A DNA stretch of 34,522 bases from an uncultured Verrucomicrobiae bacterium (GTDB lineage Bacteria; Verrucomicrobiota; Verrucomicrobiia; Limisphaerales; J093): assembly GCA_937976685.1 (NCBI GenBank), contig CALJWR010000190.1, positions 1-34,522 of the forward strand, written 5' to 3'. Positions 130-28,052 of the stretch are shown here, piece by piece (position 1 is the stretch's first letter; every line of letters starts with the position of its first letter). Under the pieces are notes generated by a model that was not told the DNA's origin, ran no database searches, and saw only the letters and a list, made by a program, of their open reading frames with translations. The position numbers and the translations under genes are program-made.

Positions 130-435
130 GGCCAGCCTGACGCTTCAGGTCAATTGGTTCCGCTCGGCCTGCGAGCAATAACCGGGCGTGGGTTTCGGCC
201 TCAGGGAGCAAGCGCTGCTGCGTTGCTTGGATGGCCGAATCGTCGGACGACTCGTCAGCGATCAACGGATAGTGGAGGCCCTCCCACGTCCGCCTTGAGG
301 ACGGGAACCCTCGCCTCGGCCGTCCGGCGGCGTCACCGGTTTGGGAAGGTGGTCGGGCGGCGGGTAGCCCCCCGATGCCCAAAAACGGCTCGGGTCCGGC
401 TGGTGTCTGGCGCTGGTCCTGCTTACTGTCGCGCC
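130..435. other. Intergenic region upstream of the giant lamin-tail gene
   Basis: These 306 bases lie between the stop of the Cys/His-tailed gene and the preferred ATG at 436. The reading frame of the giant gene stays open back to a TTG at 154, but the translation of 154-435 is arginine/proline-rich, low-complexity and would sit in front of an otherwise good signal peptide, so I treat it as untranslated. No convincing sigma70 promoter, Shine-Dalgarno sequence or RNA gene was seen. Confidence 0.45.
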
Positions 436-3400
436 ATGATTCATTGTACGAACACGGAGCCGGTCGGCGAATCGGGGCCTTCCCATCAACCGCCGTCGCC
501 CTCTGGAGCCTCCCCGGCCCGCCTCCGATCCTTTGCGTCATGGCTGCTGGCCGCCTGCCTGGTGGCGCCGTTCACCTGGGGCCAATCCATCCTTCGCGAG
601 GTCTGGGAGGGCATCCCCGGCACCGCCGTTTCCGACCTGACCAGTTCGCCCGACTTTCCGCACCGGCCGAGCTTTACGAATTACGTCACCGACTTTTTCG
701 AGGCACCGACCGATGTGCTCGACAACTACGGCCAACGGCTGCACGGCTACCTGGTCCCGCCGGTCACCGGCAACTACACGTTTTGGATCGCCAGCGATGA
801 CGGTGGTGAGCTGTGGCTCAGTACCGACGCCTCGCCCACCAATCAGCGCCTGATCGCCACCGTCGCTTCATGGACCTCCTCGCGCGAATGGACCAAGGAA
901 GCCAACCAGCAATCGTCGCCGATCCGACTCACCGCCGGCCAGCCGTATTACGTCGCCGCTCTGATGAAAGAAGGCGGTGGCGGGGACAACCTGGCCGTGC
1001 GCTGGGTGCGCCCGGATGGCGTGGATGAAGGGCCGATTCCGGCGAAGCACCTCCTGCCGTTTGGCGTCGTTTTCGGGCCCCCAGTAATTGCCGAGCAGCC
1101 AACCAACACAACCGCGATCGAGGGCAGGTTTGCCACCTTCACGGTCAAACCCCGCGGCTTCAGTCCTGTCGCGTACCAGTGGCAACGCAACGGCACCAAT
1201 CTCCCTGGCGCGACCGCGGCCCAACTTCAGTTCGGACCGGTACGACTGACCGACCACGGCGCGCAGTTCCGGGTAGTCCTGACCAACAGCGCTGCGACGG
1301 TGATCAGTGACCCCGCCCTGCTGAGTGTGCTGCCTGACACCGAACCGCCCCGTTTTGCCGCCGCGAGCAACGAGGGACGGACGCGGGTCATCGTCGTATT
1401 CGACGAAATGGTCGCCGCAGCGTCCGCTCTGAATCCGGCCAATTACGCCCTCGATCGGGGCGTCGCCATCACCGCGGCCCAGTTCGGCGCCGACCAGCAA
1501 ACCGTGGTACTAACCACCAGTCCGCTGACCTACGGCGAGACCTACACCCTGACGGTCAACAACGTTACGGACATCGCTGCCACGCCGAACGCCATCGCGC
1601 CCGGATCGCGGATTAGCTTTCGGGCCAATGAGTACGTGCCGGCGGACATCGGCGCGCCGGCTCTGGCCGGCAGCACGGTCTCGGTACCGGGCGGCGTGGA
1701 CGTCACCGGCGGCGGACGGACGATCGGTGGCACGCAAGACCAGTTTCAGTTCGGCTGGCAGGAACAAACCGGAAACTTCGACATCGAAGCCCGCGTGGCC
1801 GATGTCACGGTCCCGGACCCCTTTGTCCACGCCGGTCTGATGGCACGGGCCAGCCTCGACGCGAATTCCCCCTTCGGCGCGGTTTTTGCGTCCTCGGCGC
1901 AACTGGGCTGTTTCTTCGAGTCGCGCGCCACCGCTGGAGCGGCTTCCACCACTGCCGCGCCTCGTGGTGGCTTTCCCGCGAATTATCCGCAGACCTGGCT
2001 TCGATTGCAGCGCAGCGGAAACACGCTCATCGGCTACGCCAGCCTCGACGGCAGAACCTGGGTCCAGCTCGGGTCGGTCACGATTCCAAGCCTGCCGGCG
2101 CGATTGTTCCTCGGCTTCGCGGTCACGGGAGACAATGAGACCGCCACCGCCACCGCCCGGTTCCGCGACATCGGACCGGTGCGCAATCCTTCCACCGGGG
2201 CGGTGACCTTTGCGAAAGAGCCGCCCGCGCCTTCGAGCCGGTCCACCGGCATGATCATCAGCGAGATCATGTACTATCCGCCCCCGCGGGACGACAGCCG
2301 GAACCTCGAGTTCATCGAACTGCACAATGCCCGCTCCGTGCCTGAAGACCTGACCGGCTGGCGACTGAGCGCGGAGATCAGTTATCGGTTTCCGGACGGA
2401 TTCACGCTCCCGGCCGGCGGAACGGTGGTGGTCGCCGCCGTACCCGACGATATCCGCGCCGTGTACGGCATCACCAATGTGCTGGGGCCGTACACCGGTG
2501 CGCTGTCGAACGGTGGCGGCATCGTCCGCCTCCGCAACAACGCTGACGCCATTCGGCTCGAGGTTGAGTACGATGACGCTCCCCCCTGGCCGATCGCCGC
2601 GGATGGGGCCGGCCACTCGCTGGTGCTGGCCCGGCCCAGCTACGGTGAGAACGACGTCCGCGCCTGGGCTGCCAGCGAGTTCCGGGGCGGCTCTCCCGGC
2701 ACGATGGACCCCACCGTGCCGTCGCCGGAAACGAGCGTGGTCATCAACGAGTTTCTCGCCCACACGGATGATCCGGTGCTGGACTTCATTGAGCTCTACA
2801 ATCGCTCGAACCAGCGCGTGGACCTGTCCGGCTGCTGGTTGTCGGATTCGCCCGCCACCAACCGCTTCCGCATCCCGGACGGCACGTTCATCGAGCCGCG
2901 CGGCTTCCTTTCGTGGGACCAAAATCAACTCGGCTTCGCGCTGAGCTCGGCGGGCGAGCGCCTCTTCCTGGTCAATTCCAACCAGACCCGCGTGCTCGAC
3001 GCCATTGAGTTTGGCGGGCAGGAGAACGGTGTTTCGTCCGGTCGTTCCCCCAATGGCAGCGCCGAGATCCGTCGCCTCCTCGCGCCGACACCCGGAGCCT
3101 CCAACGCGCCCTGGCGCCCGGAAGACATCGTGATCAACGAGCTTATGTACAACCCCATCTCGGGCGACGACGCCGACGAGTACGTCGAACTCCACAATCG
3201 CGGAGCGCAGCCCGTTTCCCTCGGCGGCTGGCGGTTTGTGGAAGGCATCAATCTCACTCTCCCCGCCGGCACCACGATTCCCGCAGGCGGCTACCTCGTG
3301 GTCGCAAAGAACGCGGCGCGCCTCCGGGCCAATTACCCCCACCTCTCCAGCGCCAACACGGTGGGCGACTACGATGGCGTCCTGCGCAACAGCGGCGAAC

Positions 3401-6400
3401 GCGTCGCACTGGCGAAGCCGGATGAGATCGTCACGCTGGACGACAACGGCCAGTTGACGACCAACCTCATCCACATCGTCGTCGCTGAGGTAACTTACGC
3501 TGATGGCGGGCGGTGGGGTGAGTACGCGGATGGCGGCGGATCCAGCCTCGAGTTGATTGATCCGAACGCCGACCCGTTGCGCGCGGCCAATTGGGCGGAC
3601 AGCGACGAAACCGGCAAAGCCCCGTGGACCACCGTCGAGTTCACCGGCCGGGTGGACAATGCCAACGGCACCGCGAACCGGCTCTTTATCAGCTCCCTCG
3701 GTGGCGGTGAATACCTGCTGGACGACGTGGAAGTCTTCCGGCAAGGCAGCACCAACGTGGTGAACAACGGCGGGTTCGAAAGCGGTGCGACCGGCTGGGT
3801 CTTCAGCGGGAATCACAGCACCTCCTCCGTGGTGACCAGTGGTGCGGCCAGCGGCGCCGCCTGTCTGCGCCTGCGCGGGCAGGGCGACGGCGACACCGGC
3901 CCCAACACCGTGCGCAACACCCTGCGCGCCACGATCGCCGCCAACGCAAACGCGACCATCCGCGCGAAAGTGCGCTGGCTCGCGGGCTGGCCGCAGGTGC
4001 TGTTCCGCCTGAAGGGCAACGGGCTGGAACTGGCGGCCAACCTCGAAATCCCGCGCAATCTCGGCACGCCTGGGCTTCCCAACAGCCGCCGGGTCCTGAA
4101 CGCCGGCCCGGCCATTTTCGATGTCAGCCATTCGCCCGCCCTGCCAGCGGCGTCCGAGTCGGTCCACGTCACCTGCCGCGTCTCCGACGCCGGCGTCCGG
4201 GACGTGCGTCTGCAGTATCGGCTCGATCCCGCCACGACGCTGACCACGGTGACCATGCGCGACGATGGCACCGGCGGGGACGCAGTGGCGGGCGACGGCG
4301 TGTACACGGGGCGAATTCCCGGACAGGCCGCCGGCCGGCTGGCGGCGTTTCGCATCTCCGCCACGGACGACGCCGCGTTGCCCGCCACGAGCGTGTTTCC
4401 GGCCGCGGCACCGGCGAAGGAATGTCTGATTCGGTGGGGCGATCCCCTGCCCTTCGGCACCTTTGCCCACTACCATCTCTGGTTCACGCAGGCGACGCAG
4501 AGCGCCCGGCGGAACGCGCTCGATAACACCTATCGCGACTGCACGCTGGTTTACAACAACCATCGGGTCATTTACAACGCAGGCTTCCGGGACAAGGGCA
4601 GCCCCTACCATCAAGGAGCGGGTGACCTGGCCGTGCAGGTGCCGGCGGATGACCTCCTGCTCGGCGAGGCGGAACGGATTCTGGCCTCCACGGGCAACGG
4701 CGGATCGGAGGCCACCGGCATCCGCAGCCAGCTCGCGGCCTGGTATGCGCAGCAGCTTGGCATCCCCTATCTCCACGCCCACTACATTCGCGTGTACTTC
4801 AACGGCAACGAGTTCCGGAACGTGATGGAAGACCTGGAACAGCCACGCCACAGCTATGCCCGGAGATGGTTCCAGTCCGCCCCGGAGGGCGACCTCTACA
4901 AGGTGTCCGTCTGGTTCGAGTTCAACGATGACAATCTCGGATTCCAGCCCACGGGAGCCACGTTGCAGCGCTTCACCACGCTCAACAGCGAATACAAGCT
5001 GGCCCGGTACCGTTGGAACTGGCAGCGCCGCTCCAACGACGGCGACGCCTCGAATTATCGGCAGTTGCTCGATCTCGTAACCGTCATGAACGACACGTCT
5101 GCCGCCTACAGCAGTCGGGTTCTGGACCTGGCGGACATGGAGCAGTGGATGCGCGTGTTCTGTTACGACTATGCGATGGGCAACTGGGACGCGTGGACCT
5201 ACAACGTCGGTCAAAACATGTTCCTTTACAAACCCGACGGCCAGCGCTGGGTCCTGATGCCGTGGGATATTGATTTCGTGTTCGGCCTGGGCGATGGAAC
5301 CAATACCGCGCTGCGCGGCGGTGGGCAGGATCCCACCATGAGCCGCGCCTATGGCAACGCCACCTTCCAGCGCATGAACTGGCGCGCCTACCAGGACACG
5401 ATCAACGGCCCCTTCCTGCCGGAACGATTCCAGCCCCAAATTGACGCCCGCCGGTCGGTCCTCCTGAAGAACGGCATCACCGGGTTGAGCGACCCGCGCG
5501 TGATCACCACGTGGATCAACGGCCGCCGCACATTCATTCAGAATCAGCTCAACGCGACCGACGCGAGGGTGTTCGAGATTACGACCAACGGCGGCAATGA
5601 CTTCGATTCCACCACTCCGACCGTCACCCTCGACGGCACCGCCCCCATTGCCGTGGCCACCCTCGAGGTCAACGGCATCCCCTATCCAGTCTCCTGGACG
5701 AGCGTCCGCAACTTCCGCATCGTCGTTCCCCTCACGGCGGCGACCAACACGCTGAGCCTGGTCGGGCGCGATCTCCGCGGCAATCCGGTGGCCGGGGCCA
5801 CCGATACCATCACCGTCCGGTACTCCGGGGCGATCGAGAAGGTGGAGGACTTCGTGGTGATCAACGAGATCCACTACGACGCGGCGGACAACGAGCCCGC
5901 GTCCACTTTCCTCGAACTGTACAATCGCTCGTCGGTCACACCCTTCGACCTGAGCGGCTACCTCCTGCGCGGCGTGGGTTACACGTTCCCGCCCGGCGCG
6001 ATCATCCAGCCCAACACGCATCTCTTGCTGGTCGGGAACCGGGCCGGCTTTTCGGCCGTGTATGGGTCCACCATCCCGGTCTATGCGGAATTCCCCGGCT
6101 CGTTGGATAACGACGGGGAACGGCTCTCGCTGGTGCGCCCGGCGACCGCGACCGAGCCGGAATTCATCGTTTCCGATGTGCGTTATTGGCACCGGCCGCC
6201 GTGGCCGACCAATGCCGCCGGCTTGGGCCCTTCGCTCCAACTGATTGATCCCGCTCGCGGCTCCTGGCGGGTGGCCAACTGGGCCGCCACTGCCACCAAC
6301 GACGTCAATCGCGCCACGCCCGGTCGGGCCAATTCGGTGGCCCAGCCCTTGGCGCCCTTCCCGCCCCTCTGGCTCAACGAAGTTCAACCCAACAACGTCT

Positions 6401-9400
6401 CCGGAATCACCGACAGCGCCGGCGACCGCGATCCGTGGATTGAGCTCTACAACGCGGGAACCGAGGCGCTGGACCTTTCGGCGTACTTTCTGACCGACTC
6501 CTACTCCGCCCTGACCCGCTGGCAATTCCCCGCCGGAACCACGCTCGCCCCGGGCGGTTTCCTCCTCGTCTGGGCGGACGGGGAGCCGGTCGAATCCAAA
6601 CCCGGCGAACTTCACACAAACTTCCGGCTCGCGCCCGCGACGGGAGCCGTCGCGCTGGTCCGCCGACAAGGCACTCCCGTGACGCCAGCAGTCCTGGATT
6701 TCGTCGAGTGGGAGAACCTCTCGGCGGGGCGCAGCGTGGGATCGCATCCGAACGGCGATCCCCGCCGCCGCCGACAGTTCGTCAACGTGACACCGGGCGC
6801 GCCGAACGATCCGTCGCTGCCGCCGGTCCAGGTACGGATCAACGAGTTCATGGCCGGCAACACGCGGACCATCGCGGATCCGGCCGACGGCCGCTACGAT
6901 GACTGGTTCGAACTGTACAACCCGGCCACGACACCCGCTGACCTTTCGGGGTACACCCTCACGGACACGTTCGCCAATCCGACCCGCTACACGATCCCAT
7001 CCGGCGTCGTCGTCCCACCGGGCGGTTTCCTCCTGGTCTGGGCGGACGACGAGACCAACCAGAACGCCCCGGGACGTGACCTTCACGTCAATTTCCGCCT
7101 CGCCCTGGCTGGCGAAGACCTCGCCTTGTTCGCGCCCGATGGCTCGCTGGTGGACGGCTTTACCTTCGGGCCGCAGGTTAACGACGTCAGCCAGGGGCGC
7201 TATCCCGATGGCGCCGAGTTGCCGCTCTATGACATGGAAACGCCCACACCCGGCTTCTCGAACGTTCTGGCCGGCGCCAATCGGCCGCCCGTGTTCGATC
7301 CGATTCCCCCGTTGGCCGGGGACGAGGGCACCCGGCTGACCTTTGTCGCTCGGGCGACCGATCCCGACGAGGGGCAGACGCTTCGCTACCACTTGGGCGC
7401 TGACGCGCCGGCCGGCGCGGTGATTGATCCCGACACCGGGGCCTTCCGCTGGACCCCCGAGGAGGCGGACGGCCCCGGCCAGTTCAGTTTCCTCATTCGC
7501 GCCACGGACAGCGGTTCCCCGGCGCGTACCGGCACCGTTCGGGTGACCATCACGGTGGCCGAGGTCAATTCACCGCCCGTCTTTGTGCCCCCGCCGGAAC
7601 TGGAAGTGGATGAAGGCGAACTCCTGGCCATCCAGTTCACCGCGACGGATCCGGATCTTCCCCCCAACCGCCTGACCTTCACGCTCGGCCCCGACGCGCC
7701 ACCGGATGCGACCCTGGCGCCCGACGGCGCGTTCTCGTGGGTGCCCGATGAGTCTCAGGGCAACCGCACCCTCGTCTTCACCGTTCGCGTCACCGACGAC
7801 GGCACCCCACCGCTCAGCGACACCGGCTTGGTGCGCATCCGTGTCCGCGAAGTGCCCAACCCGCCGATCATGCCCTTCATCGAGCCTCAGATGGTGGATG
7901 AGGGCGCCCTCTTCCGCCTGCAAGTGGTGGCTTGGGACCCGGACACGCCGCCGAGCCCGCTGATCTTTTCGCTCGTGGAAGCACCGACCGGCGCGCGGAT
8001 TGACGCGGGCACCGGCCTGATCACCTGGCAGACCACGGAAGCCGATGGTCCCACCAACGCCATTTTCATCGTGCGAGTCACCGAGGCGAATCCCCCTCAC
8101 CACAGCACAACCCGCACGTTCAGCGTGACGGTCAACGAGGTCAATCAACCGCCGGTCCTGCTGGCGTTTGCGCCCCAGACGGTCCGCGAAGGCGACACGC
8201 TGGCGATTCGCGCCCAGGCGTCCGACCCGGACCTGCCCCCGCAAACGCTGACCTTCAGCGTGGATCCCGGCGCACCGGCCGGCCTGACGATTGATCCTGC
8301 CAGCGGCTGGATTCTCTGGCCGGTGGACGGGGATGCCGGTCCGAGCACCAACCACGTGGTCGTCCGTGTCACGGATGATGGCCCGGGCAAGCTCAGCGCC
8401 ACTCAGATGTTGCAGGTCGTGGTCGTGCCCCAGCCGCACCTCGTGATCAACGAAATCATGTACCGCCCCACCACCAACCTCACCGAGTTTATCGAGGTGG
8501 CGAACAACTCGGCGTGGCAAACCGTCTCCTTGGGCGGCGTCCGGCTGGTGGGTAACGACCTGGAATGCCAATTCCCGCACGGGCTGCGCCTGGCACCCGG
8601 CGGCTTCATCGTGGTCGTTCGGAATCAGGCCGCTTTCCGAGCTGCTTACGGGCCGGCGCCCGTGGTGGTTGGCGAGTGGACGGGCAACCTGAACCCCGCC
8701 GGCGACGACTTGCGACTGGTCCAGTCCACGCCACCGGGGCCGGACGAAATCCTCAACCGGGTCCGTTTCGCCGCCGGGCCACCGTGGCCCGCTGCCGCCA
8801 ACGGACAGGGCGGCTCGCTGCAACTGCGCGACCTCCGCCAAGACAACGCCCGCGTCGCCAACTGGGATGCCGTTGCTGGTTCGACCAGCGTTCAGGCCAC
8901 CACCCTGCTCGTGATGACCAACGCCTGGCGGTACAACCAGTCGGGCGCCAATCTCGGGACAGCCTGGCGTGAGCTGGCGTATGACGACTCCACGTGGCCC
9001 ACCGGCAACGCCCTGCTGTATGTCGAGAACGCAGCCCTGCCTGCGCCCAAGAACACGCCACTGACGATTGGGCAAATGCAGTACTACTTCCGGGCGAAGT
9101 TCCAGTACGCGGGTCCGACGACTGGCGCGCGGCTGCGGGCACGGACCATCGTTGACGACGCTGCGGTGGTGTACCTCAACGGGCGCGAAATCCTGCGCCT
9201 CGGCTTCGCTGCCGGGACCGAAGTCACGTTCAACCTCCCGTCCGAGCGACTGGTGGGTGATGCCGCCATTGAGGGACCGTTCGAGATTCCGGGCGATGCT
9301 CTGCGCGTCGGCGAAAACGTCGTTGCCGTCCAGGTTCACCAGGTCAACGCCACCAGCAGCGATGTTGTCTGGGGCATGGACCTGGTCGTCGAGGCCAGCG

Positions 9401-10122
9401 CCGCGCCGGCGACTCCAGGTCAGCCCAATTCCCTGGCGCGACCACTCCCGCCTTTCCCGGCGGTCTGGCTCAACGAGCTCCAGCCGCTCAACGAAACCGG
9501 ACCGCTCGACAACTCCGGCGAGCGCGAGCCGTGGATCGAGCTGGTGAACATCGGCCCCACGCCCGCGTCCCTCGAAGGTTGGTATCTCACCGACAGTCTC
9601 GCCAATCTGACCAAGTGGCCGTTCCCTTCGGGCTTCACCCTCGCGGGCAGTTCCGTGAGCCTGCTTTGGGCCGATGGCGAACCCGCCGAGACGGCCGGCG
9701 AGCACGTTCACACCAGCTTCCGCCTGTTCAACGGTCGCTTCCTCGCGCTGGTGCGCGATCAACCCGGCGGCCCGGCCGTGATGGACTACTGGGTGGCCCC
9801 GTCGCTCGCGCCGGACACGTCCTACGGCTCGCTCCCGGACGGGCAACCGTTCGTGCGCGTCATCTTCGATCGGCCCACCCCGGGCCGCTTCAACAGTGTC
9901 GTGCCCGTGCCGGAAATCCTCAGCATCGAACGAACCGGTGACGGCGCCGTGCGTTTCGCGTGGGCCACCGTGCCGGGCGTCGTGTATCGCGTTGAAGCCG
10001 CCGCCGCGGTGAACGATCCGGTGTGGCAAACGCTGGCGGAAGAAGTGGCCGCGGGAGAAGGCATGACCTACGCCGATCCGATCAGCAACGGCTCCCGCTT
10101 CTATCGGGTCGTCGTGCCCTGA
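436..10122 (+). CDS. Giant secreted modular protein: PA14, Ig-like, eight lamin-tail domains, CotH-like domain, cadherin-like repeats
   Basis: A 3228-residue exported protein. From the ATG at 436, residues 1-50 form a signal peptide (hydrophobic SWLLAACLVAPFTWG, likely cleavage near 49-51). Domains in order: PA14-like (about 55-205), Ig-like (214-300), SbsA-type Ig-like (301-397), a laminin-G/DUF1349-like sandwich (400-585), and lamin-tail domains starting near residues 605, 767 and 895. Next come a carbohydrate-binding-like segment (1060-1215), an Ig-like segment, and a CotH-like domain (about 1350-1710) with the PWDIDFVFG motif at 1609-1617, whose aspartates are expected metal ligands. Lamin-tail domains 4-6 follow (from about 1806, 1974, 2129), then four He_PIG/cadherin-like repeats (2279-2665), lamin-tail 7 (2667), a beta-rich segment, lamin-tail 8 (about 2995) and a short verrucomicrobial C-terminal module ending FYRVVVP. 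CotH of Bacillus is a protein kinase; activity here is inferred only. No PEP-CTERM, LPXTG or TM anchor is visible. An adhesive or cell-surface role is plausible. Confidence 0.9.
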   Translation: MIHCTNTEPVGESGPSHQPPSPSGASPARLRSFASWLLAACLVAPFTWGQSILREVWEGIPGTAVSDLTSSPDFPHRPSFTNYVTDFFEAPTDVLDNYGQRLHGYLVPPVTGNYTFWIASDDGGELWLSTDASPTNQRLIATVASWTSSREWTKEANQQSSPIRLTAGQPYYVAALMKEGGGGDNLAVRWVRPDGVDEGPIPAKHLLPFGVVFGPPVIAEQPTNTTAIEGRFATFTVKPRGFSPVAYQWQRNGTNLPGATAAQLQFGPVRLTDHGAQFRVVLTNSAATVISDPALLSVLPDTEPPRFAAASNEGRTRVIVVFDEMVAAASALNPANYALDRGVAITAAQFGADQQTVVLTTSPLTYGETYTLTVNNVTDIAATPNAIAPGSRISFRANEYVPADIGAPALAGSTVSVPGGVDVTGGGRTIGGTQDQFQFGWQEQTGNFDIEARVADVTVPDPFVHAGLMARASLDANSPFGAVFASSAQLGCFFESRATAGAASTTAAPRGGFPANYPQTWLRLQRSGNTLIGYASLDGRTWVQLGSVTIPSLPARLFLGFAVTGDNETATATARFRDIGPVRNPSTGAVTFAKEPPAPSSRSTGMIISEIMYYPPPRDDSRNLEFIELHNARSVPEDLTGWRLSAEISYRFPDGFTLPAGGTVVVAAVPDDIRAVYGITNVLGPYTGALSNGGGIVRLRNNADAIRLEVEYDDAPPWPIAADGAGHSLVLARPSYGENDVRAWAASEFRGGSPGTMDPTVPSPETSVVINEFLAHTDDPVLDFIELYNRSNQRVDLSGCWLSDSPATNRFRIPDGTFIEPRGFLSWDQNQLGFALSSAGERLFLVNSNQTRVLDAIEFGGQENGVSSGRSPNGSAEIRRLLAPTPGASNAPWRPEDIVINELMYNPISGDDADEYVELHNRGAQPVSLGGWRFVEGINLTLPAGTTIPAGGYLVVAKNAARLRANYPHLSSANTVGDYDGVLRNSGERVALAKPDEIVTLDDNGQLTTNLIHIVVAEVTYADGGRWGEYADGGGSSLELIDPNADPLRAANWADSDETGKAPWTTVEFTGRVDNANGTANRLFISSLGGGEYLLDDVEVFRQGSTNVVNNGGFESGATGWVFSGNHSTSSVVTSGAASGAACLRLRGQGDGDTGPNTVRNTLRATIAANANATIRAKVRWLAGWPQVLFRLKGNGLELAANLEIPRNLGTPGLPNSRRVLNAGPAIFDVSHSPALPAASESVHVTCRVSDAGVRDVRLQYRLDPATTLTTVTMRDDGTGGDAVAGDGVYTGRIPGQAAGRLAAFRISATDDAALPATSVFPAAAPAKECLIRWGDPLPFGTFAHYHLWFTQATQSARRNALDNTYRDCTLVYNNHRVIYNAGFRDKGSPYHQGAGDLAVQVPADDLLLGEAERILASTGNGGSEATGIRSQLAAWYAQQLGIPYLHAHYIRVYFNGNEFRNVMEDLEQPRHSYARRWFQSAPEGDLYKVSVWFEFNDDNLGFQPTGATLQRFTTLNSEYKLARYRWNWQRRSNDGDASNYRQLLDLVTVMNDTSAAYSSRVLDLADMEQWMRVFCYDYAMGNWDAWTYNVGQNMFLYKPDGQRWVLMPWDIDFVFGLGDGTNTALRGGGQDPTMSRAYGNATFQRMNWRAYQDTINGPFLPERFQPQIDARRSVLLKNGITGLSDPRVITTWINGRRTFIQNQLNATDARVFEITTNGGNDFDSTTPTVTLDGTAPIAVATLEVNGIPYPVSWTSVRNFRIVVPLTAATNTLSLVGRDLRGNPVAGATDTITVRYSGAIEKVEDFVVINEIHYDAADNEPASTFLELYNRSSVTPFDLSGYLLRGVGYTFPPGAIIQPNTHLLLVGNRAGFSAVYGSTIPVYAEFPGSLDNDGERLSLVRPATATEPEFIVSDVRYWHRPPWPTNAAGLGPSLQLIDPARGSWRVANWAATATNDVNRATPGRANSVAQPLAPFPPLWLNEVQPNNVSGITDSAGDRDPWIELYNAGTEALDLSAYFLTDSYSALTRWQFPAGTTLAPGGFLLVWADGEPVESKPGELHTNFRLAPATGAVALVRRQGTPVTPAVLDFVEWENLSAGRSVGSHPNGDPRRRRQFVNVTPGAPNDPSLPPVQVRINEFMAGNTRTIADPADGRYDDWFELYNPATTPADLSGYTLTDTFANPTRYTIPSGVVVPPGGFLLVWADDETNQNAPGRDLHVNFRLALAGEDLALFAPDGSLVDGFTFGPQVNDVSQGRYPDGAELPLYDMETPTPGFSNVLAGANRPPVFDPIPPLAGDEGTRLTFVARATDPDEGQTLRYHLGADAPAGAVIDPDTGAFRWTPEEADGPGQFSFLIRATDSGSPARTGTVRVTITVAEVNSPPVFVPPPELEVDEGELLAIQFTATDPDLPPNRLTFTLGPDAPPDATLAPDGAFSWVPDESQGNRTLVFTVRVTDDGTPPLSDTGLVRIRVREVPNPPIMPFIEPQMVDEGALFRLQVVAWDPDTPPSPLIFSLVEAPTGARIDAGTGLITWQTTEADGPTNAIFIVRVTEANPPHHSTTRTFSVTVNEVNQPPVLLAFAPQTVREGDTLAIRAQASDPDLPPQTLTFSVDPGAPAGLTIDPASGWILWPVDGDAGPSTNHVVVRVTDDGPGKLSATQMLQVVVVPQPHLVINEIMYRPTTNLTEFIEVANNSAWQTVSLGGVRLVGNDLECQFPHGLRLAPGGFIVVVRNQAAFRAAYGPAPVVVGEWTGNLNPAGDDLRLVQSTPPGPDEILNRVRFAAGPPWPAAANGQGGSLQLRDLRQDNARVANWDAVAGSTSVQATTLLVMTNAWRYNQSGANLGTAWRELAYDDSTWPTGNALLYVENAALPAPKNTPLTIGQMQYYFRAKFQYAGPTTGARLRARTIVDDAAVVYLNGREILRLGFAAGTEVTFNLPSERLVGDAAIEGPFEIPGDALRVGENVVAVQVHQVNATSSDVVWGMDLVVEASAAPATPGQPNSLARPLPPFPAVWLNELQPLNETGPLDNSGEREPWIELVNIGPTPASLEGWYLTDSLANLTKWPFPSGFTLAGSSVSLLWADGEPAETAGEHVHTSFRLFNGRFLALVRDQPGGPAVMDYWVAPSLAPDTSYGSLPDGQPFVRVIFDRPTPGRFNSVVPVPEILSIERTGDGAVRFAWATVPGVVYRVEAAAAVNDPVWQTLAEEVAAGEGMTYADPISNGSRFYRVVVP

Positions 10123-10140: not shown

Positions 10141-12957
10141 ATGAACACCCGCGGACGCGAGGCCGCACTAGCGCACGACCCCTCTCGGGTCGCTCGTCTC
10201 GCGATGGCGTTGTTCCTCTTCATCGCCTTGCTCGCCGGGCGGGCGCAGCCAGCTCCGGGCGAGCCGGCCTCGGAGGCGCCGGAGAGCCTCCCGGCGATCG
10301 AAGTGCATGTGGCTCCGGATGGAAACGATCAGTGGTCGGGGCGACTGCGCCGGCCCAACCTGGAACGTACCGACGGCCCGCTCGCTTCGTTATCGGCGGC
10401 CACGGACGCGGCGCGCCGTTTGCGGGCAACCTTCGGCCGGCCCGTTCCGATCAACATCCTGGTTCAAGGCGGCCGGTATCGCCTGAACGAACCGCTCATC
10501 CTCGATCCGCGCGACTCCGGCACTTCCAACGCACCTGTCATCATTACCGCCGCTCCGGGCGAGCGTCCGGTCTTTTCGGGCGGTGAGTTGATCACGGGCT
10601 TCCGTCCGGCAGGTGACCGCTGGGAAGCGGAGTTGCCCGAGGTCAAGGCCGGCCGCTGGTACTTCCGCCAGTTGTGGGTCAATGGAGAGCGCCGGCCGCG
10701 GGCGCGCTCGCCGAACACGGACTACCACCGGATCGCAGGCTTGCTGCCGGGACCGGCCCGCCCCAACGCCCTGGCAGTCATGCACGACCGATTCCGGTTC
10801 GAACCGGGCAACCTCCGGCCGTGGGACCGGCTGGGCGACGTGAACGTGATCCTGATGCACTCGTGGGAAACCTCGATTCATCCGGTCAAAACCGTGGACG
10901 CCACCTCCAACATCGTCGAGTTGGCCGCTCCCTTGAAGGAATGGTGGGGGCTCGGCTACTGGGAGCGAGCGCAGCGATACTACGTCGAAAACGCCCTGGA
11001 ACTGCTCGACCAGCCCGGCGAGTGGTATCTGAACCGCGAGACTGGCATCCTGACCTACTGGCCGCGGCCGGGCGAGCGGCTCGGCGAGGTGGAAATCATC
11101 GCCCCGCGGCTCCGGGAGTTTGTCCGGCTGGCGGGCAACGCGGATCAAGGGGAGTTCGTAGATCATGTTACCCTGCGCGGATTAACGTTCCACCACGCTG
11201 ACTGGGAACTTCATCCGAACGGCAACAGCAGCACGCAGGCGGCGGTGGAGGTCCCGGCCGTCGTCACTGCGAACGGTGCGCGACACTGCGCCATCGAGGG
11301 CTGTGAAATCGCGCACATTGGCACCTACGGCATCTGGTTCCGGCGCGGTTGCAAGGACGGCCGCATTCAACGCAACCGGCTCTTCGACCTGGGGGCGGGC
11401 GGCATCCGCCTGGGCGAGCCGAACATGGCCCGCAGCGACGCGGCCGAGACGAGCCGGATCTGGGTGGACAACAACCACCTGTTCGCCGGCGGTCGAGTGT
11501 ACGCGGGCGCCGTGGGCGTCTGGCTGGCCCACAGCAGCCACAACCGGGTTTCCCACAACGACATTCACGACCTGTACTACACCGGCATCAGCGTGGGTTG
11601 GAACTGGGGCTTCGAGACCAACCGAACGCATCACAACGTCATCGAGTTCAACCACGTCCACGACCTGGTCCACGGCGTCCTCAGCGACGCGGGATTGATC
11701 TACTGCCTCGGGGTCTCGCCCGGCAGCGTCATCCGCAACAACGTGTTGCACGACATCTGGCCGTACTCCACGCCCGCGTTCGGCTGGGGCATCTACCTGG
11801 ATGCCAGGTGCGGGGGATACCTCGTGGAAAGCAACCTGGTGTACAACACCCGGAGCGGCGGCCTCATGTTCAACAACGGCGGCCACGCCCACACCATCCG
11901 TCACAACATCTTTGCGTTGTCCGCCGAGCACGCGCTCTGGCCTTACTCAGCCGAGCAACCCACCACCTTCCGCCACAACATCGTCTATCTGACCCAGGGC
12001 GACCTGTTGATTCCGAACGGCGAATGGTCCCTCGGCGAACGCATTGCACGTGGACAGTCCATCGGCGACTGGGATGACAACCTTTACTGGCACACCGGTC
12101 ACGGTGAGCGACTGCGTTTCTACCGGCATCGCTTCGGCGAGTGGCAGCGGCTGGGTCTGGACCGCAATTCCCGCGTCGCGGATCCTTTGTTCGCCAACGC
12201 GGCCGGCCACGACTTCCGCCTGCGGCCGGAGTCGCCCGCGTTCGAACTGGGATTCCGCGAGCCGGACCTCAGCCGCGTCGGACTTTACGGCGACGAGTCG
12301 TGGACGCGCGAAGCGAGTCACTCCCGCTGTGAAATGCGTCCGCTCCCGCCGCCGACCGCGGCGCCGCCACCGTTCGAACTCGAGGATGGCTTTGAGGAGA
12401 CCCGCGTCGGCGAGAAGCCCCGACGTGCGATTGTCCAGGGTGAGGAGCGCGGGGCCTCGATTCGGGTCACGGAGGAACGCGCGGCGTCCGGAAGCCGCAG
12501 CCTCAAGGTGACTGACGTCCGGGAATTGACGCCTTCGTGGCAACCTCACTTCTACTACCAGCCGAGGTGGGACAGCGGCATCGCCCGCCACAGTTTCGAC
12601 CTGTGGCTCGGCCCGCGAGCGGAAGTGATCGTCGAATGGCGGGACCTTGCCACCTTTCCCCAAAACATCGGTCCCAGCCTCCGGTTCGACGCCCAAGGCG
12701 AAGTTCAGGCGGGCGGGCGGGTGTTGACCCGGGTTCCGCGGGAGGCATGGATTCGCGTGGAAATCGAGGCCGCCCTCACGGACCCGCCGGCCCGGAGTTT
12801 CCAAGTCACGTTGGGCCTCCCCGGCGGCGAACGGCGCGTCTTTTCCGACCTGCCCATCCCCGGCTCGCACTTCCAGGAATTGCACTGGCTGGGCTTCATC
12901 AGCGTCGCCGCCGAAGACGCGGTCTTCTATCTGGACAATCTGCGCTTGAGCCGCTGA
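10141..12957 (+). CDS. Secreted right-handed beta-helix protein, GH141-like glycoside hydrolase
   Basis: A 938-residue exported protein. After a basic start, a hydrophobic segment (about 20-34, AMALFLFIALLAG) looks like a signal peptide. The N-terminal block has the layout of GH141-type proteins: VAPDGNDQWSG, then GGRYRLNEPLIL, APVIITAAPGERPVFSGG, and RQLWVNGERRPRARSPN. It is followed by many parallel beta-helix turns rich in N/H motifs (HNRVSHNDIHDLYYTGIS, HNVIEFNHVHDLVHG, RNNVLHDIW) up to about residue 720. Residues about 743-938 form a separate beta-sandwich-like domain ending FYLDNLRLSR. Characterised GH141 members include an alpha-L-fucosidase and a xylanase, so a plant or algal polysaccharide is the likely target; the exact substrate cannot be read. 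It starts 18 bp after the giant gene and is probably co-transcribed with it. No clear Shine-Dalgarno sequence is present. Confidence 0.85.
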   Translation: MNTRGREAALAHDPSRVARLAMALFLFIALLAGRAQPAPGEPASEAPESLPAIEVHVAPDGNDQWSGRLRRPNLERTDGPLASLSAATDAARRLRATFGRPVPINILVQGGRYRLNEPLILDPRDSGTSNAPVIITAAPGERPVFSGGELITGFRPAGDRWEAELPEVKAGRWYFRQLWVNGERRPRARSPNTDYHRIAGLLPGPARPNALAVMHDRFRFEPGNLRPWDRLGDVNVILMHSWETSIHPVKTVDATSNIVELAAPLKEWWGLGYWERAQRYYVENALELLDQPGEWYLNRETGILTYWPRPGERLGEVEIIAPRLREFVRLAGNADQGEFVDHVTLRGLTFHHADWELHPNGNSSTQAAVEVPAVVTANGARHCAIEGCEIAHIGTYGIWFRRGCKDGRIQRNRLFDLGAGGIRLGEPNMARSDAAETSRIWVDNNHLFAGGRVYAGAVGVWLAHSSHNRVSHNDIHDLYYTGISVGWNWGFETNRTHHNVIEFNHVHDLVHGVLSDAGLIYCLGVSPGSVIRNNVLHDIWPYSTPAFGWGIYLDARCGGYLVESNLVYNTRSGGLMFNNGGHAHTIRHNIFALSAEHALWPYSAEQPTTFRHNIVYLTQGDLLIPNGEWSLGERIARGQSIGDWDDNLYWHTGHGERLRFYRHRFGEWQRLGLDRNSRVADPLFANAAGHDFRLRPESPAFELGFREPDLSRVGLYGDESWTREASHSRCEMRPLPPPTAAPPPFELEDGFEETRVGEKPRRAIVQGEERGASIRVTEERAASGSRSLKVTDVRELTPSWQPHFYYQPRWDSGIARHSFDLWLGPRAEVIVEWRDLATFPQNIGPSLRFDAQGEVQAGGRVLTRVPREAWIRVEIEAALTDPPARSFQVTLGLPGGERRVFSDLPIPGSHFQELHWLGFISVAAEDAVFYLDNLRLSR

Positions 12958-15557: not shown

Positions 15558-17507
15558 CTAACGGTGCGGCGTGGCGGCTGGAATGACGGCTGAAACGGCC
15601 GGCTCGGGCTGACGCTTCAGCAAGTCGCCCAGGTTGTAGTGGGTGTAGCGGGTGTGCGAGGCGACATTCTTGCTGTCTGCATTCGCGACCCAGAGGTCCA
15701 GAGTCTCCGGCGCAAACAGCACCGAATGAATGTTGGAGTTCATTGCCACGGGCAGTTCCATCAGGGCGCGGGAGCGGTCTGCGTCGAGCCGGCCGTGCTG
15801 CGTCTTCACCCGCTCGGCGAGTTTCTCGTAACGGTTGCCGGCGCTCATCAGAACCGCGCCGGGAATCGCGTGCGGGAGTTGGGGATGGGCCTCGCCGGGC
15901 TTCACGACCTCGAAGCGGGTGGGCGTCGCCGCGATGCCCACCGCCTGGCGCGTGTTGCCGTCGGCGATGACGTAGTAGTACTCACAGGTGCGCGGGCCGC
16001 GGCGCATGATTTCGACGGCCTCTTCGAGGGAGTCTGCCTTTTCCATCACTTCGCGAATGAGTTGGGCCATGGGCTTGCCGTCCCAGTCCCCTTCGCCGCG
16101 CCCGCCCATTTCTCCGATCGAGATGCGCTTCTCGTTCATCGCCGTGACCGACCCGACAAATCCGGCGTAGCTGACGTTGACCCACGCGTGTCCGTAGCTG
16201 GGCTGGTGGACGATCACCACGGCGTTGGGCTCCAGCCCCACGCCTTTGAGGTAGTCGAGGATCCGGCCGTGATACAGCCGGCCGTCCACCGTGGCGGGAC
16301 CAGCCACCGCAAAACCGCTGCAGTGGAACAGCTCCGGGAAGAAGTTGGCCAACCGCACTTCTTCACGCTCCAACCCGGCGGCCTCGGCGATGGCATCCAT
16401 CTCCTCCAGATAGCGCGGATCCATGAAAGGCATCAATCGCCTCTGCGCTTCCTGAATCTCACCAAAGAACCAGCGACCCTTTTCGAAGGAGCTTCCCACG
16501 CCCACCCCGTACACGATCTTATCCACCAGATCGCGCACCTGGCGGCGCAGGAGCACCCCGTGTTGCCGGCCCATCTCCGTGGGCGTGCCCTTCAGATACA
16601 GGACGCGCGTTCCGTCCTGGTCCTCCAACCAGCCGGCTCCCTCGCGGGCGAGCACCTTCCGCGCGCCGGTGGCGGGACCGAGGGTCGGAATCTGTTGGTT
16701 CAACAGCGACCAAGCCGCGGGCAGAAGCCGGCCAATTTGGGACAGCGCCACCGTTTCGATTTTGGCCTCGGCCGGCGCCGATAACTTCCACGTCTCAGCC
16801 GGCAACGGCCCGGCGAGGTTGAGCCCTGTCAACTCGACCGTCAGGCGCTTGCCACCGCCATCGTCCAGTTTGAGGCGGGCGGGCAGCGCGTCGTTTTCGC
16901 GAATCCACGCGGTCAGCTCCACCTTCGGCAGCTTGAGCAGTTCCATCGCCTGCGGTTGCGACCTGGCATGGACGACCTTGCACGCGACGCCCTCCACCGC
17001 CTCGGGGGCGAGGAACTCCGCTTGGAGGAGAAACGGCAACGCGAGTACCTGCTCGCGCGAAACCGGCAACTTGATCGGCGGCAAACGGGTCCCGTCCGGC
17101 TCATTTGGGCGCGTCACGTACCGCGGCACGTCAGCGGAACCAATCACGCCAAACTGCTGCTTGGGCGCGACCACCCACAACTGCTGCCCGTCGCGGCCGA
17201 TTTCGAGGGCGCGCCCCTCAAATTCGGCGCCGAAGCGGAAGTGCTCCGGCGCTTGCAGTGCAAAGGAGGCCGTCCGGCCCGCCAGCCCCTTGCCAAGCCC
17301 CTCGGCTTCGAGCACGCGCAAGGTTCCCGAGACGCTTCGAACCGGCGCGCCGGCGGGCGGCTCGAAAAGAGTGGTCAACTGACCGATGGCTTTCCCCAGC
17401 AGGGCCTGCGGCGTTTCGGCTACCGGGGGCTGCTGGGATTGAAGCGCCAACGCGAGAAACAGACTGGCCAGGCAGGCGGCAGTGCGGTTCAGAGATGGTG
17501 TTTGCAT
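15558..17507 (-). CDS. Secreted C45-type (Ntn hydrolase) acyltransferase/peptidase with an N-terminal LolA/DUF2092-like domain
   Basis: A 649-residue exported protein. Residues 1-26 form a signal peptide (ACLASLFLALALQS). Residues about 30-270 are beta-rich and resemble the lipoprotein-carrier fold of LolA/DUF2092 proteins (FALQAPEHFRFGAEFEGRAL, DGQQLWVVAPKQQFGV); this part is a weaker call. From about 300 on it is a C45-like domain: YLKGTPTEMGRQHGVLL, EEMDAIAEAAGLEREEV, then LFHCSGFAVAGPATVDGRLY, GRILDYL, MNEKRISIGEMGG and YYVIADG. Cys396 (codon 16320-16322), in HCSGFAV, is the expected nucleophile. In classical C45 enzymes that cysteine becomes the new N-terminus after self-cleavage, which here would release the N-terminal domain. 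Family members cleave amide bonds (penicillin, acyl-peptides, ceramide-like substrates); the substrate here is unknown. Confidence 0.82.
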   Translation of the reverse strand: MQTPSLNRTAACLASLFLALALQSQQPPVAETPQALLGKAIGQLTTLFEPPAGAPVRSVSGTLRVLEAEGLGKGLAGRTASFALQAPEHFRFGAEFEGRALEIGRDGQQLWVVAPKQQFGVIGSADVPRYVTRPNEPDGTRLPPIKLPVSREQVLALPFLLQAEFLAPEAVEGVACKVVHARSQPQAMELLKLPKVELTAWIRENDALPARLKLDDGGGKRLTVELTGLNLAGPLPAETWKLSAPAEAKIETVALSQIGRLLPAAWSLLNQQIPTLGPATGARKVLAREGAGWLEDQDGTRVLYLKGTPTEMGRQHGVLLRRQVRDLVDKIVYGVGVGSSFEKGRWFFGEIQEAQRRLMPFMDPRYLEEMDAIAEAAGLEREEVRLANFFPELFHCSGFAVAGPATVDGRLYHGRILDYLKGVGLEPNAVVIVHQPSYGHAWVNVSYAGFVGSVTAMNEKRISIGEMGGRGEGDWDGKPMAQLIREVMEKADSLEEAVEIMRRGPRTCEYYYVIADGNTRQAVGIAATPTRFEVVKPGEAHPQLPHAIPGAVLMSAGNRYEKLAERVKTQHGRLDADRSRALMELPVAMNSNIHSVLFAPETLDLWVANADSKNVASHTRYTHYNLGDLLKRQPEPAVSAVIPAATPHR

Positions 17508-25245: not shown

Positions 25246-27648
25246 CTATTCGACCTCGAACACGAACACCGTGGCACTGCACGGCGCCACCGTCAGCGCG
25301 TCGCCGAACGCCGCCGCCCCTTGCTCGATGACTACCTTGGGCGGCTGGTCCGGGTCGTTGCACGCCTGCGGGTCAGTGCCGGCGATCTGCCACCGTTGGC
25401 CGGCACGCTTGAGCCTGGTCCCGCTCACCGTCAGCGGGATTTGCTGCTCCTTCAGCGACGCATTGACGACCCCCAACGTCAGCGTCTTGCGGTCCTTGCT
25501 CCACGCCGCTTGCGCGTCAATCAGCCCCTCGGTCCTGGTCGCCACCGGCAGCTCGCCGAAGTGATCGCGGTACATCTTGAGCACCAGCCCGGTCGTCTCG
25601 AACGCGGCGTTGCGCCGGCTCACCTTGATCGCGCCAATGACATTCACCGTCTGCGCGTAAAACGCCGAGTGGATCAGGTCGCTTTGCCGCGCGTACTCGT
25701 GGACACCGGCGGCGATGCCGAGTCCGTCCTTGAGGAAGTACCGGGTGCCCAGTTCGCCGAACACGTGCGGCCCGTACCAGTAGTTCCACTCGGTTATGGC
25801 GATGCGGATGTCCTTGCCCTTGAGATTGGGCAGGTCAGCGCGAGCCTTGCGGTGGAAGTCCGCCTTCGAGCGGATGTTGTCCGGGATCTGGCGGATGTGC
25901 GCCATCAAGCCCGGCCGTTCCTGACAGTAGAAGTGCTCGGCGATCGCCTCCATGTGGTCGGCGCAATTCTTCAGCAGGCCGGTGCTCCACGGACCGGCGT
26001 TGCCCGAGGAGATCGTGAAGATGTTCGGATCCACCTCGCGCATTTTGTCCACCACCCAGTTCTGCTTGAGGATGTAATGGTCCAGCGACATGTAACCAAG
26101 CTGCCAGTTGCCCCACATCTCGTTGCCGATGCCCCAGTACTTCACCCCGAACGGCTTCGGCGACCCGTTCTTTGCGCGGCGGGCACCCCACAGCGTGTCG
26201 GCCGAGCCGTTGCAGTACTCGAGCTGCGCGGCCGCCGAATAAGCGTCGCCAAAACCGGTGTTCACGGTGATCCACGGCTCGGCGCCGACCCGTTCGCAGA
26301 AGCGGATGAATTCGTGCATCCCGAAGTCGTTGTGCTCAACGCCGGTCCAGGCCGGGTTCGTTCGCGGTGGACGGCGGTCGCGGTCGCCGATGCCGTCGCG
26401 CCAGTCGTAGCCGCTGACAAAATTGCCGCCGGGCCAGCGGTAGATGGGCGCGCGCAGTTCGCGGAGCAACGCCAGCGTGTCGGCGCGCAGCCCCTCCACG
26501 TTGTCTGCCGGCATGAGCGACGCCGTCCCCACCAGCACTGCGCCCGAATCCACCCGCAGTTCCACCCACGCTTTGTCGGTGGTGACCGAGGCGGTGAACG
26601 CGAACGGATATCGCCGGTAGTCGGCATCAATCCCCGAGACCGTCTGTGAGTCGCGCCCACCCTGTTCATCGCCCCAGGACAACGTCACCGCGGCATCATT
26701 GCCCGCGGCGACGTCGGCCTTCAGCCAGAGGTAACCGGTGTAGGACTTGCCCTCCGAAACGCCCAAGTCGAGCTGCCGGATGCCGCTCCCCTTGGCGATC
26801 CGCGGGGTGTGCCGGCCCACGAATGGCTGGTTCGTGCTCATGGTCACGCCCGCGGTGTCGCCCACAATCTGCCACGGTGAAGCACCCACCACCGGGTAGG
26901 CCGTGTTCCGCAATGAGGTGTAGGGCGCGTAATTCGCTTTGATGGGATAATAGAACTTTCGGTCCTCCAACATCTCCGCCCAAATGCCGCCATAGATGCA
27001 CCGGCCGAGGTGTTCGATGAACTGGCTGTACACGTTCTCCGACATCGGTTCGCCCACCTGTGTCGCGTCCACCGAAATGCGCGGGGCTGGTGGCGTCACG
27101 TCAGCCAGGGCCGTCAGCGTGATGTCATCGTACCATGCTTTCCCGGTCGCCTGCCCCCAGCCGCCAAACAGGCAGTTCAACTGCACACTGGTCTGATCCG
27201 CCGTTTCAAACTCGGTTTTCACCTCGGTCCAGTCGCTGGTGCCGGTCACCGCCGGTGTGGCCACGCCTTGCAGGTTGTGCAGGTTCAGCAGTGCGCCGCG
27301 CCCGCCGCTCACCGGCCGAACGTTCTCGGTCTTGATCCAACCACTCAGCGCGTAGCGCGTGAACGGTTGCACGGGCACCGTCACCGTCCAACTGAGGTCG
27401 GCCCCCCGCTCGGACGACAACTCCACGCTCCGGCTGCCGGTGCGCCCCACATTCGCGAAGCCGAAGGCGCCCTCTCCGCCCCACGTCTCGGTGCGCCAGC
27501 CGCGCGGGCGTTGAGCGCCGCCGGGACCACCTCCGGTCTGTTCAAACGAGGGATTTGGCACCGCGTTCTCCGCCGCGGCGGGCGAGCCTGCGAGGAAACA
27601 GACCGCGAAAGCGGGCAGCAAGCTCGCGAGGCGCGAAGGAGTTCTCAT
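25246..27648 (-). CDS. Secreted alpha-L-arabinofuranosidase, GH51, with an N-terminal carbohydrate-binding domain
   Basis: An 800-residue protein from the ATG at 27648; the frame runs open to 27999, but the upstream part is repeat-rich and precedes a good signal peptide (RLASLLPAFAVCFLAGSPAAA, residues 5-25). Residues about 28-190 form a CBM4/9-like sandwich (VPNPSFEQTGG, WYDDITLTAL). The GH51 barrel begins IEHLGRCIYGGIWAEMLEDRKF and continues RWPGGNFVSGYDWRDGIG and NDFGMHEFIRFCERVGAEP. Glu510 in GIGNEMWG is the expected acid/base and Glu620 in ITEWNYWYG the nucleophile. A C-terminal beta domain completes the family layout. It removes arabinofuranose side chains from arabinan or arabinoxylan, here outside the cytoplasm. 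The STING-like gene starts one base after its stop. Confidence 0.95.
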   Translation of the reverse strand: MRTPSRLASLLPAFAVCFLAGSPAAAENAVPNPSFEQTGGGPGGAQRPRGWRTETWGGEGAFGFANVGRTGSRSVELSSERGADLSWTVTVPVQPFTRYALSGWIKTENVRPVSGGRGALLNLHNLQGVATPAVTGTSDWTEVKTEFETADQTSVQLNCLFGGWGQATGKAWYDDITLTALADVTPPAPRISVDATQVGEPMSENVYSQFIEHLGRCIYGGIWAEMLEDRKFYYPIKANYAPYTSLRNTAYPVVGASPWQIVGDTAGVTMSTNQPFVGRHTPRIAKGSGIRQLDLGVSEGKSYTGYLWLKADVAAGNDAAVTLSWGDEQGGRDSQTVSGIDADYRRYPFAFTASVTTDKAWVELRVDSGAVLVGTASLMPADNVEGLRADTLALLRELRAPIYRWPGGNFVSGYDWRDGIGDRDRRPPRTNPAWTGVEHNDFGMHEFIRFCERVGAEPWITVNTGFGDAYSAAAQLEYCNGSADTLWGARRAKNGSPKPFGVKYWGIGNEMWGNWQLGYMSLDHYILKQNWVVDKMREVDPNIFTISSGNAGPWSTGLLKNCADHMEAIAEHFYCQERPGLMAHIRQIPDNIRSKADFHRKARADLPNLKGKDIRIAITEWNYWYGPHVFGELGTRYFLKDGLGIAAGVHEYARQSDLIHSAFYAQTVNVIGAIKVSRRNAAFETTGLVLKMYRDHFGELPVATRTEGLIDAQAAWSKDRKTLTLGVVNASLKEQQIPLTVSGTRLKRAGQRWQIAGTDPQACNDPDQPPKVVIEQGAAAFGDALTVAPCSATVFVFEVE

Positions 27649-27732
27649 GCGCGGAGGATGTTGAAGCGGACCAACGACGGCAAGCGAGGACGAACAAAAA
27701 GCCGCAACCTTGAAGGCCAACCTGGCGGTTGG

Positions 27733-27795
27733 CGGCACCCGCAACGCCGGTCTTCTGACCGGCTCCGAGGCCGACTTGGCGGTCGGCGTTACCAG
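27733..27795. repeat. Dispersed intergenic repeat, copy 1
   Basis: Contains GCAACGCCGGTCTTCTGACC followed by GGCTCCGAGGCCGAC, with an internal GCCGGTC/GACCGGC hairpin around TTCT. A clearly related sequence lies at 32278-32345. Both are intergenic, both are followed by a GGTC-rich segment, and both read VGLGAGQ(K/E)TGVAG on the minus strand although neither is in a gene. It resembles a REP-type element. Confidence 0.6.
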
Positions 27796-27843
27796 TAAGC
27801 ATCCAACTGAGGCACCGACTCGGCCGGGCGACGGCCTTGGAAG

Positions 27844-27866
27844 AAAAGGGCATGATGGGCCCTTTT
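27844..27866 (-). terminator. Possible bidirectional terminator downstream of ribokinase
   Basis: AAAAGGGC (27844-27851) and GCCCTTTT (27859-27866) form an 8-bp stem with a 7-base loop. On the minus strand the hairpin ends in TTTTC. It is about 190 bp downstream of the ribokinase stop and the U-tract is short, so it is a weak candidate. Confidence 0.4.
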
Positions 27867-28052
27867 GGAAAAAAGGGCGTCCGACCCTGCTTGCAGATCC
27901 ACTTAGCCAGCCACCCAAGGCAGGCGAGGCGCGGGTCGAGGCGCCGCCCGGCGCGCGGCAGCCACCGAATCCGCGCCGAGCGCCCGAGGGGCGCGCCAAA
28001 GGGGAGCAGGCTACGAAACCACCGGCCCTCTCAACACCCCGCCGCGTCCGCC

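Follow-up and report, generated by a model that had tools for sequence, protein, structure and literature searches.

The closest described systems are the CotH kinases of Bacillus. For CotH, a review names equivalents of the PKA residues D166, N171 and D184 and an adenine sandwich of Tyr142 and Trp245 (PMC12189002). In B. subtilis CotH, D228Q is reported to abolish activity and D251A is described as inactive (PMC7821199). Lamin-tail domains (LTDs) joined to CotH are found in Cthe_0239 of Clostridium thermocellum, which a table of cellulosomal proteins lists with the order LTD, LTD, Fn3, CotH (PMC6083626). Because of this two-LTD CotH protein, LTD-CotH fusions as such are already known. Giant planctomycete genes with lamin-tail domains, such as Fuma_00096, are likewise on record (PMC5177795). 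Among the literature matches listed, and at the level of abstracts, no description of the LTD-CotH family analyzed below was found.

The stretch of DNA analyzed here, referred to as the window, comprises 34,522 nucleotides and is one entire contig of a draft genome from an uncultured Verrucomicrobiae bacterium. It encodes P0001, whose CotH-type kinase domain is embedded in a long series of LTDs and other modules (Table 1).

Modular architecture and lamin-tail frame of P0001

The first-pass annotation had described P0001 as a 3228-residue modular protein with PA14, eight LTDs, a CotH domain and four cadherin/He_PIG-like repeats, and a Pfam domain search recovers all of these components (LTD, 8 stretches, E 2.7e-109; He_PIG, 4 stretches, 2.9e-23; CotH, 4.7e-17; PA14, 9.9e-11). 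Big_5 barely passes its cut-off (E 2.3e-5) and Ig_3 remains sub-threshold, while NCBIfam adds a choice-of-anchor X match at residues 1272-1301. Beyond the modules listed at first, P0001 contains choice-of-anchor X, a jelly-roll-like stretch (2794-3000) and a Fn3-like C-terminal tail without annotation. The signal-peptide-like start is present as judged by eye, and from this we infer that P0001 is probably exported.

A genome search with the Pfam LTD model returned eight in-frame matches starting at nt 2236, 2722, 3121, 5854, 6409, 6823, 8431 and 9514, two of which start only at profile position 22. These matches are independent of the first-pass coordinates and lie 3 to 46 nt from the eight starts given there; they also bear out the placement of the CotH domain amid eight LTDs. 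The finer LTD boundaries were derived with a local model that took those earlier starts as seeds, so their agreement within 5 nt is no independent check. P0001 belongs to PF00932 with 359.6 bits for the whole protein over 8 stretches, against a cut-off of 34.3; scored singly, seven of the eight places pass and the last reaches 32.5 bits.

The LTD frame around the kinase is almost constant, with three domains on each side. This was counted in 35 family frames, window included, after removal of exact kinase repeats. Exactly three LTDs precede the kinase in 28 of the 28 frames with at least 700 residues before it, and three follow within 700 residues in 30 of the 31 frames with at least 700 residues there, the sole deviant being L078 with two. 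The 700-residue threshold excludes L047, a complete but shorter frame with two LTDs in the 492 residues that remain after its kinase; the low-scoring L058 and the second frame of L065 were also excluded. In a full-length alignment, mean identity to 16 relatives is 56-70% for LTD1 to LTD6 (highest for LTD2 at 70%, LTD6 66%) compared with 62% for the kinase, and the kinase-flanking LTDs are therefore not freely exchanged spacers. Corresponding values are 51% for the cadherin block, 45% for LTD7, 48% for LTD8 and 34% for the tail. All 16 relatives compared over their full length are alignable from the DUF1349-like segment through the tail (only 24% for the jelly-roll segment of L070), and PA14 is missing or unaligned in 7 of them. 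Generally, PA14 and everything beyond the sixth LTD are variable across the family.

The C-terminal tail consists of about 80 residues with a motif ending in FYRVVxP, and neither Pfam nor NCBIfam gives a match to the window copy up to E 1. With a tail profile, 36 places in the window's own genome reach E ≤ 0.001, including one interrupted by stops, and a frame ends in such a tail in 9 of the 12 loci checked (L108-L119, window copy included). A fold search with a tail model gave weak matches only (best E 0.0099). In this lineage, the tail may serve generally as a C-terminal domain for sorting or anchoring.

Table 1 Features of P0001 and the adjacent gene in the window.
Feature	Residues	Position (nt)	Strand	Basis
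ORF P0001, modular LTD-CotH protein, 3228 aa		436..10122	+	Open frame 154-10122, in-frame ATG at 436
N-terminus with signal-peptide-like hydrophobic stretch	about 29-51	436..588	+	Judged by eye
PA14 domain	60-210	613..1065	+	Pfam match at 91-200 (E 9.9e-11); extent taken from a phmmer comparison of relatives
Ig-like (Ig_3, sub-threshold) and Big_5 domains	215-396	1078..1623	+	Pfam
DUF1349-like segment	401-585	1636..2190	+	Pfam sub-threshold; relatives
LTD1	607-728	2254..2619	+	Pfam and local model
LTD2	768-872	2737..3051	+	Pfam LTD model match and local model
LTD3	898-1037	3127..3546	+	Pfam and local model
CBM-like segment X	1060-1218	3613..4089	+	Weak sub-threshold CBM_4_9 match; kept in relatives
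Choice-of-anchor X / Ig-like domain, ahead of kinase	1219-1345	4090..4470	+	NF041940 above cut-off
CotH kinase domain; key positions D1585, N1594, D1611, Y1488, W1610, K1489, R1526; G1396 versus K/R elsewhere	1366-1706	4531..5553	+	Pfam, profile, model, alignments
Post-CotH segment	1707-1800	5554..5835	+	Relatives/local model
LTD4	1807-1933	5854..6234	+	Pfam and local model
LTD5	1978-2105	6367..6750	+	Pfam and local model
LTD6	2133-2258	6832..7209	+	Pfam and local model
Four cadherin/He_PIG-like repeats	2282-2655	7279..8400	+	He_PIG 4 stretches (Pfam); extent from local model
LTD7	2669-2793	8440..8814	+	Pfam and local model
Jelly-roll-like segment (name is our own reading)	2794-3000	8815..9435	+	Kept in relatives; no Pfam match
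LTD8	3010-3135	9463..9840	+	Pfam and local model
C-terminal Fn3-like tail	3150-3228	9883..10119	+	Common to other frames of the genome
P0002, GH141-like right-handed beta-helix protein		10141..12957	+	GH141_M and Beta_helix domains

CotH fold, catalytic residues and the altered N-lobe

The kinase domain of P0001 is predicted to have the CotH fold. An AlphaFold model of the kinase region (489 residues, 33-row alignment) reached a pLDDT of 90.2, and the two top-ranked Foldseek matches were the B. cereus CotH structures 5jd9 (E 8.9e-17) and 5jda (E 2.0e-16). Structure prediction had been proposed as a check of the CotH assignment, and the resulting model superimposes on both entries with Z 31.8 and an rmsd of 3.2 over 335-336 residues (VIA-align). 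The next row after CotH, at Z 12.7, matches the Ig-like part, and Z is 10.2 for the kinase CtkA and 9.9 for the kinase HipA; model residues 3-117 resemble Ig/Fn3-like domains and correspond to the choice-of-anchor X / Ig-like part. A single-sequence search of the PDB returned no CotH (best E 0.77), whereas the family profile did reach 5jd9 (E 5.1e-13). P0001 passes the PF08757 gathering score with 62.9 bits against 23.8, and all 33 members of the family alignment (the window and 32 relatives with 39-75% identity to it) match this model. Based on gathering score, fold and the aligned triad and adenine-sandwich positions, P0001 belongs to the CotH kinase superfamily (PF08757).

Conservation was assessed in a clade alignment of 47 rows, window included, with scores of at least 150 and at least 350 residues, together with 22 other CotHs chosen from 37 (36 loci and B. 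cereus CotH); among these 22, L084 was excised with its bounds shifted, and in L088 the K is displaced by one column. Expectations for a hold-out set were written down beforehand: 40 places were announced, 39 fetched and 5 repeats of earlier rows dropped, leaving 34 rows (33 distinct), of which 16 belong to the same order and 18 to other classes in the phylum. Similarity to the window was the basis for finding all clade and hold-out rows, which are not a random sample of CotHs.

By alignment, the CotH features correspond to D1585, N1594, D1611, Y1488 and W1610. All 47 clade rows and all 34 hold-outs keep the D1585/N1594/D1611 triad, and the loss of key CotH residues that had been named as grounds for rejecting the first-pass reading is thus not seen at these three positions. 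The PWDIDFVFG motif lies at 1609-1617 and the numbering of D1611 and D1613 is correct; of these two residues, both singled out initially as critical, D1611 holds up whereas D1613 varies (D in 43/47 clade rows and 29/34 hold-outs), the alignment giving D1585, N1594 and D1611 instead. The alignment and a shared 23-residue spacing suggest that B. subtilis D228 and D251 correspond to D1585 and D1611, respectively. The adenine-sandwich positions are mostly aromatic, with Y, F or H at Y1488 in 45/47 clade rows (aromatic in 31/34 hold-outs) and W or F at W1610 in all 47 (W, F or Y in 33/34 hold-outs), so that the hold-outs bore out the expectation of aromatics here in part. Within the window's tree group, L131 (G031:C35) has both the D1585 and the D1611 position changed and is likely a pseudokinase.

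The N-lobe of the clade lacks a basic residue that is usual in other CotHs, a feature absent from the first-pass annotation. In the alignment column that contains the second K of the B. cereus CotH sequence EKKSY, K or R occurs in 21 of the 22 other CotHs and in 0 of 47 clade rows, which carry G, C, S, A, Y or V (G1396 in the window). The column is not basic in 33/34 hold-outs, two of them by gap, and the exception, L157, has R. If a canonical CotH subgroup is defined by K or R in this column, an alignment-based definition of our own, P0001 falls outside it. The N-lobe Glu position, E1468, is E in 28/47 clade rows and 12/22 other CotHs. Four further residues, K1489, E1495, Y1525 and R1526, are invariant in the 47 clade rows. 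In the hold-outs, K1489 is kept in 33/34 and R1526 in 34/34, while E1495 reached only 29/34, a partial failure of the prior expectation. E1495 and R1526 are rare or unaligned in other CotHs (1/22 and 2/22). The absent N-lobe basic residue could mean weak or no phosphotransfer.

K1489 was considered as a simple relocated-lysine swap, which fits its conservation; however, K1489 is also present in 12 of the 22 other CotHs, at least 11 of which retain the N-lobe K/R, and a simple swap is therefore unsupported. Within the window's tree group, L129, L130 and L131 have no K1489. Cys occupies the G1396 column in 29 of the 81 clade and hold-out rows. A disulfide at this position was also considered and is unsupported, because no second Cys among the 81 rows accompanies those 29.

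A tree of 91 rows, built without the hold-outs, sets the 22 other CotHs to one side (SH-aLRT 88) and assigns the window to a 55-row group (SH-aLRT 99), of which 54 are distinct and 53 of these have D/N/D. More distant relatives vary at the lost position and some of them have a lysine close by; the loss of K/R is therefore claimed only for the window's tree group and the hold-outs.

Distribution and gene neighborhood

Matches to the CotH region at E ≤ 0.001 were found in 49 of 58 genomes, and in 37 of the 58 the best E is ≤ 1e-80 as counted from the table, the window's own genome being included in both cases. At E ≤ 1e-60, the family profile matches 106 of 196 genomes of the order compared with 13 of 194 in a draw from the phylum, with the own genome in both sets; the other 12 positives of the phylum draw are all classed as same phylum and none as same class. 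LTD-CotH fusions had been called common in the phylum; the subfamily counted here is centered on one order. Among the named relatives are Limisphaera MAGs and a single Lentisphaerae MAG. Searching plasmids with the kinase region gave no match.

The genome of the window has eight CotH matches, two of which, the window copy and one more, answer the family query. The other copies (L001-L006 and L008) share PF08757 with P0001, and in L005, L006 and L008 the frame matches the Pfam LTD model as well. Unlike P0001, the copies that were aligned (L001, L002, L003 and L005) have K or R in the N-lobe column. L001 (G000:C276) carries EF-hand-like and Gly/Pro-rich sequence on both sides, as seen by eye. 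Elsewhere, the single genomes G025, G050 and G052 have at least 25, 30 and 25 matches to the CotH query, distant ones included, which is a lineage-specific expansion; these copy numbers are minimum values, because only some of the candidates were scored.

Downstream of P0001, the 18-bp spacing to the next ATG (10141) on the same strand is confirmed. The beta-helix gene starting there, P0002, had been taken as a hint of a polysaccharide-related role, an idea the comparison with other loci does not sustain. A phmmer search over 4618 stop-to-stop frames from the window and 78 loci returned only the window copy of P0002. L007 and L009 among the 78 are pieces of the window's own gene and many loci are too short to contain the gene end. 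Of the 19 ortholog loci examined, 17 extend at least 3.8 kb beyond the 3' end and the remaining two 1.5 and 0.3 kb, and no P0002 homologue is present in them. Conserved co-occurrence, as would be expected of a member of a GH141-linked polysaccharide operon, is thus not seen. As the P0001-P0002 link is not conserved, it says little about function.

An all-against-all BLAST of neighbors from the 19 ortholog loci and the window gave, among the 15 largest clusters, one that joins three loci, with its window member about 10 kb from P0001. Thirteen of the remaining clusters join only L041 and L043, and one joins L062 and L076. No conserved neighbor gene hinting at a kinase substrate was found in these clusters from the 19 ortholog loci. 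Other neighbors in the window include a protein with an AAT acyltransferase domain match (15558-17507, minus strand) and an alpha-L-arabinofuranosidase-like protein with a CBM (25246-27999, minus strand).

Proposed function and relation to known systems

We hypothesize, with moderate confidence, that P0001 is a surface or matrix protein carrying a divergent CotH-type kinase, probably active, with a rewired N-lobe inside a frame of three LTDs on each side. P0001 would be exported and its kinase would act outside the cytoplasm. The nucleotide would be held between Y1488 and W1610, with D1585 as putative catalytic Asp and N1594 and D1611 as putative metal ligands, and K1489 and R1526 may take over the phosphate-binding work of the missing residue. 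Lysine-relocated kinases such as WNK are comparable in principle. The six flanking LTDs could serve as a scaffold that presents the substrate, either Ser/Thr residues of P0001 itself or a neighboring surface protein, while PA14, the cadherin-like repeats and the tail may place the protein on the surface or in a glycan matrix. As a likely outcome, surface or matrix proteins would become phosphorylated, just as spore-coat proteins are phosphorylated by CotH. A more specific version, a surface-assembly system in which the kinase without the usual N-lobe Lys/Arg phosphorylates its own lamin-tail scaffold and the LTDs are the substrate, seems rather unlikely.

The same N-lobe change, seen in every clade row (47/47) and 33 of 34 hold-outs, would also fit a pseudokinase in which the CotH fold acts as a structural or nucleotide-sensing hub between the LTD triplets and no transfer takes place. 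The changed D1585 and D1611 positions of L131 and flanking LTDs about as conserved as the kinase point the same way. However, retention of D/N/D in 47/47 clade rows and 34/34 hold-outs, 18 of the latter from other classes, and the mostly aromatic adenine-sandwich positions argue against it, and we consider a pseudokinase somewhat unlikely. A changed N-lobe next to an intact metal triad is what another nucleotide-dependent transferase might show as well, one that carries out glycan phosphorylation, AMPylation or similar chemistry on surface glycans or proteins, and the PA14, CBM-like and choice-of-anchor modules around the kinase would suit such an enzyme. Kinase folds can indeed carry other chemistries (Fam20B, SelO). 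Yet direct evidence for such chemistry is absent and by far the nearest structure is the protein kinase CotH, making this option quite improbable.

The 18-bp same-strand spacer and the GH141_M and Beta_helix domains of P0002 would speak for P0001 as an accessory protein of polysaccharide degradation, in an operon with the adjacent GH141-like enzyme. With P0002 confined to the window among the window and 78 loci, even though 17 of 19 ortholog loci reach far enough downstream, we regard this as very improbable. Under the favored reading of a divergent CotH-type kinase, a giant protein lacking an explanation becomes part of a defined family with a testable enzyme. If active, it would point to extracytoplasmic phosphorylation of proteins in an environmental order that is widespread, and would suggest a role for bacterial lamin-tail domains.

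In comparison with CotH of B. cereus and B. subtilis (PF08757; 5jd9, 5jda), P0001 has the modeled fold and the D/N/D triad in common, as well as the WDxD motif and aromatics at the adenine-sandwich positions. It differs in its low identity to Bacillus CotH (16%), in the absence of a basic residue at the aligned N-lobe column and in the embedding of its kinase in a 3228-residue LTD protein. With respect to the 22 other CotHs, its clade is set apart by the invariant E1495 and R1526. Cthe_0239 resembles P0001 in having LTDs joined to CotH but, compared by its table entry, has just two LTDs and a size listed as 117 (PMC6083626). Fuma_00096 is, like P0001, a very large gene with LTD and Ig-like domains, whereas a CotH domain is not mentioned in the excerpted description (PMC5177795).
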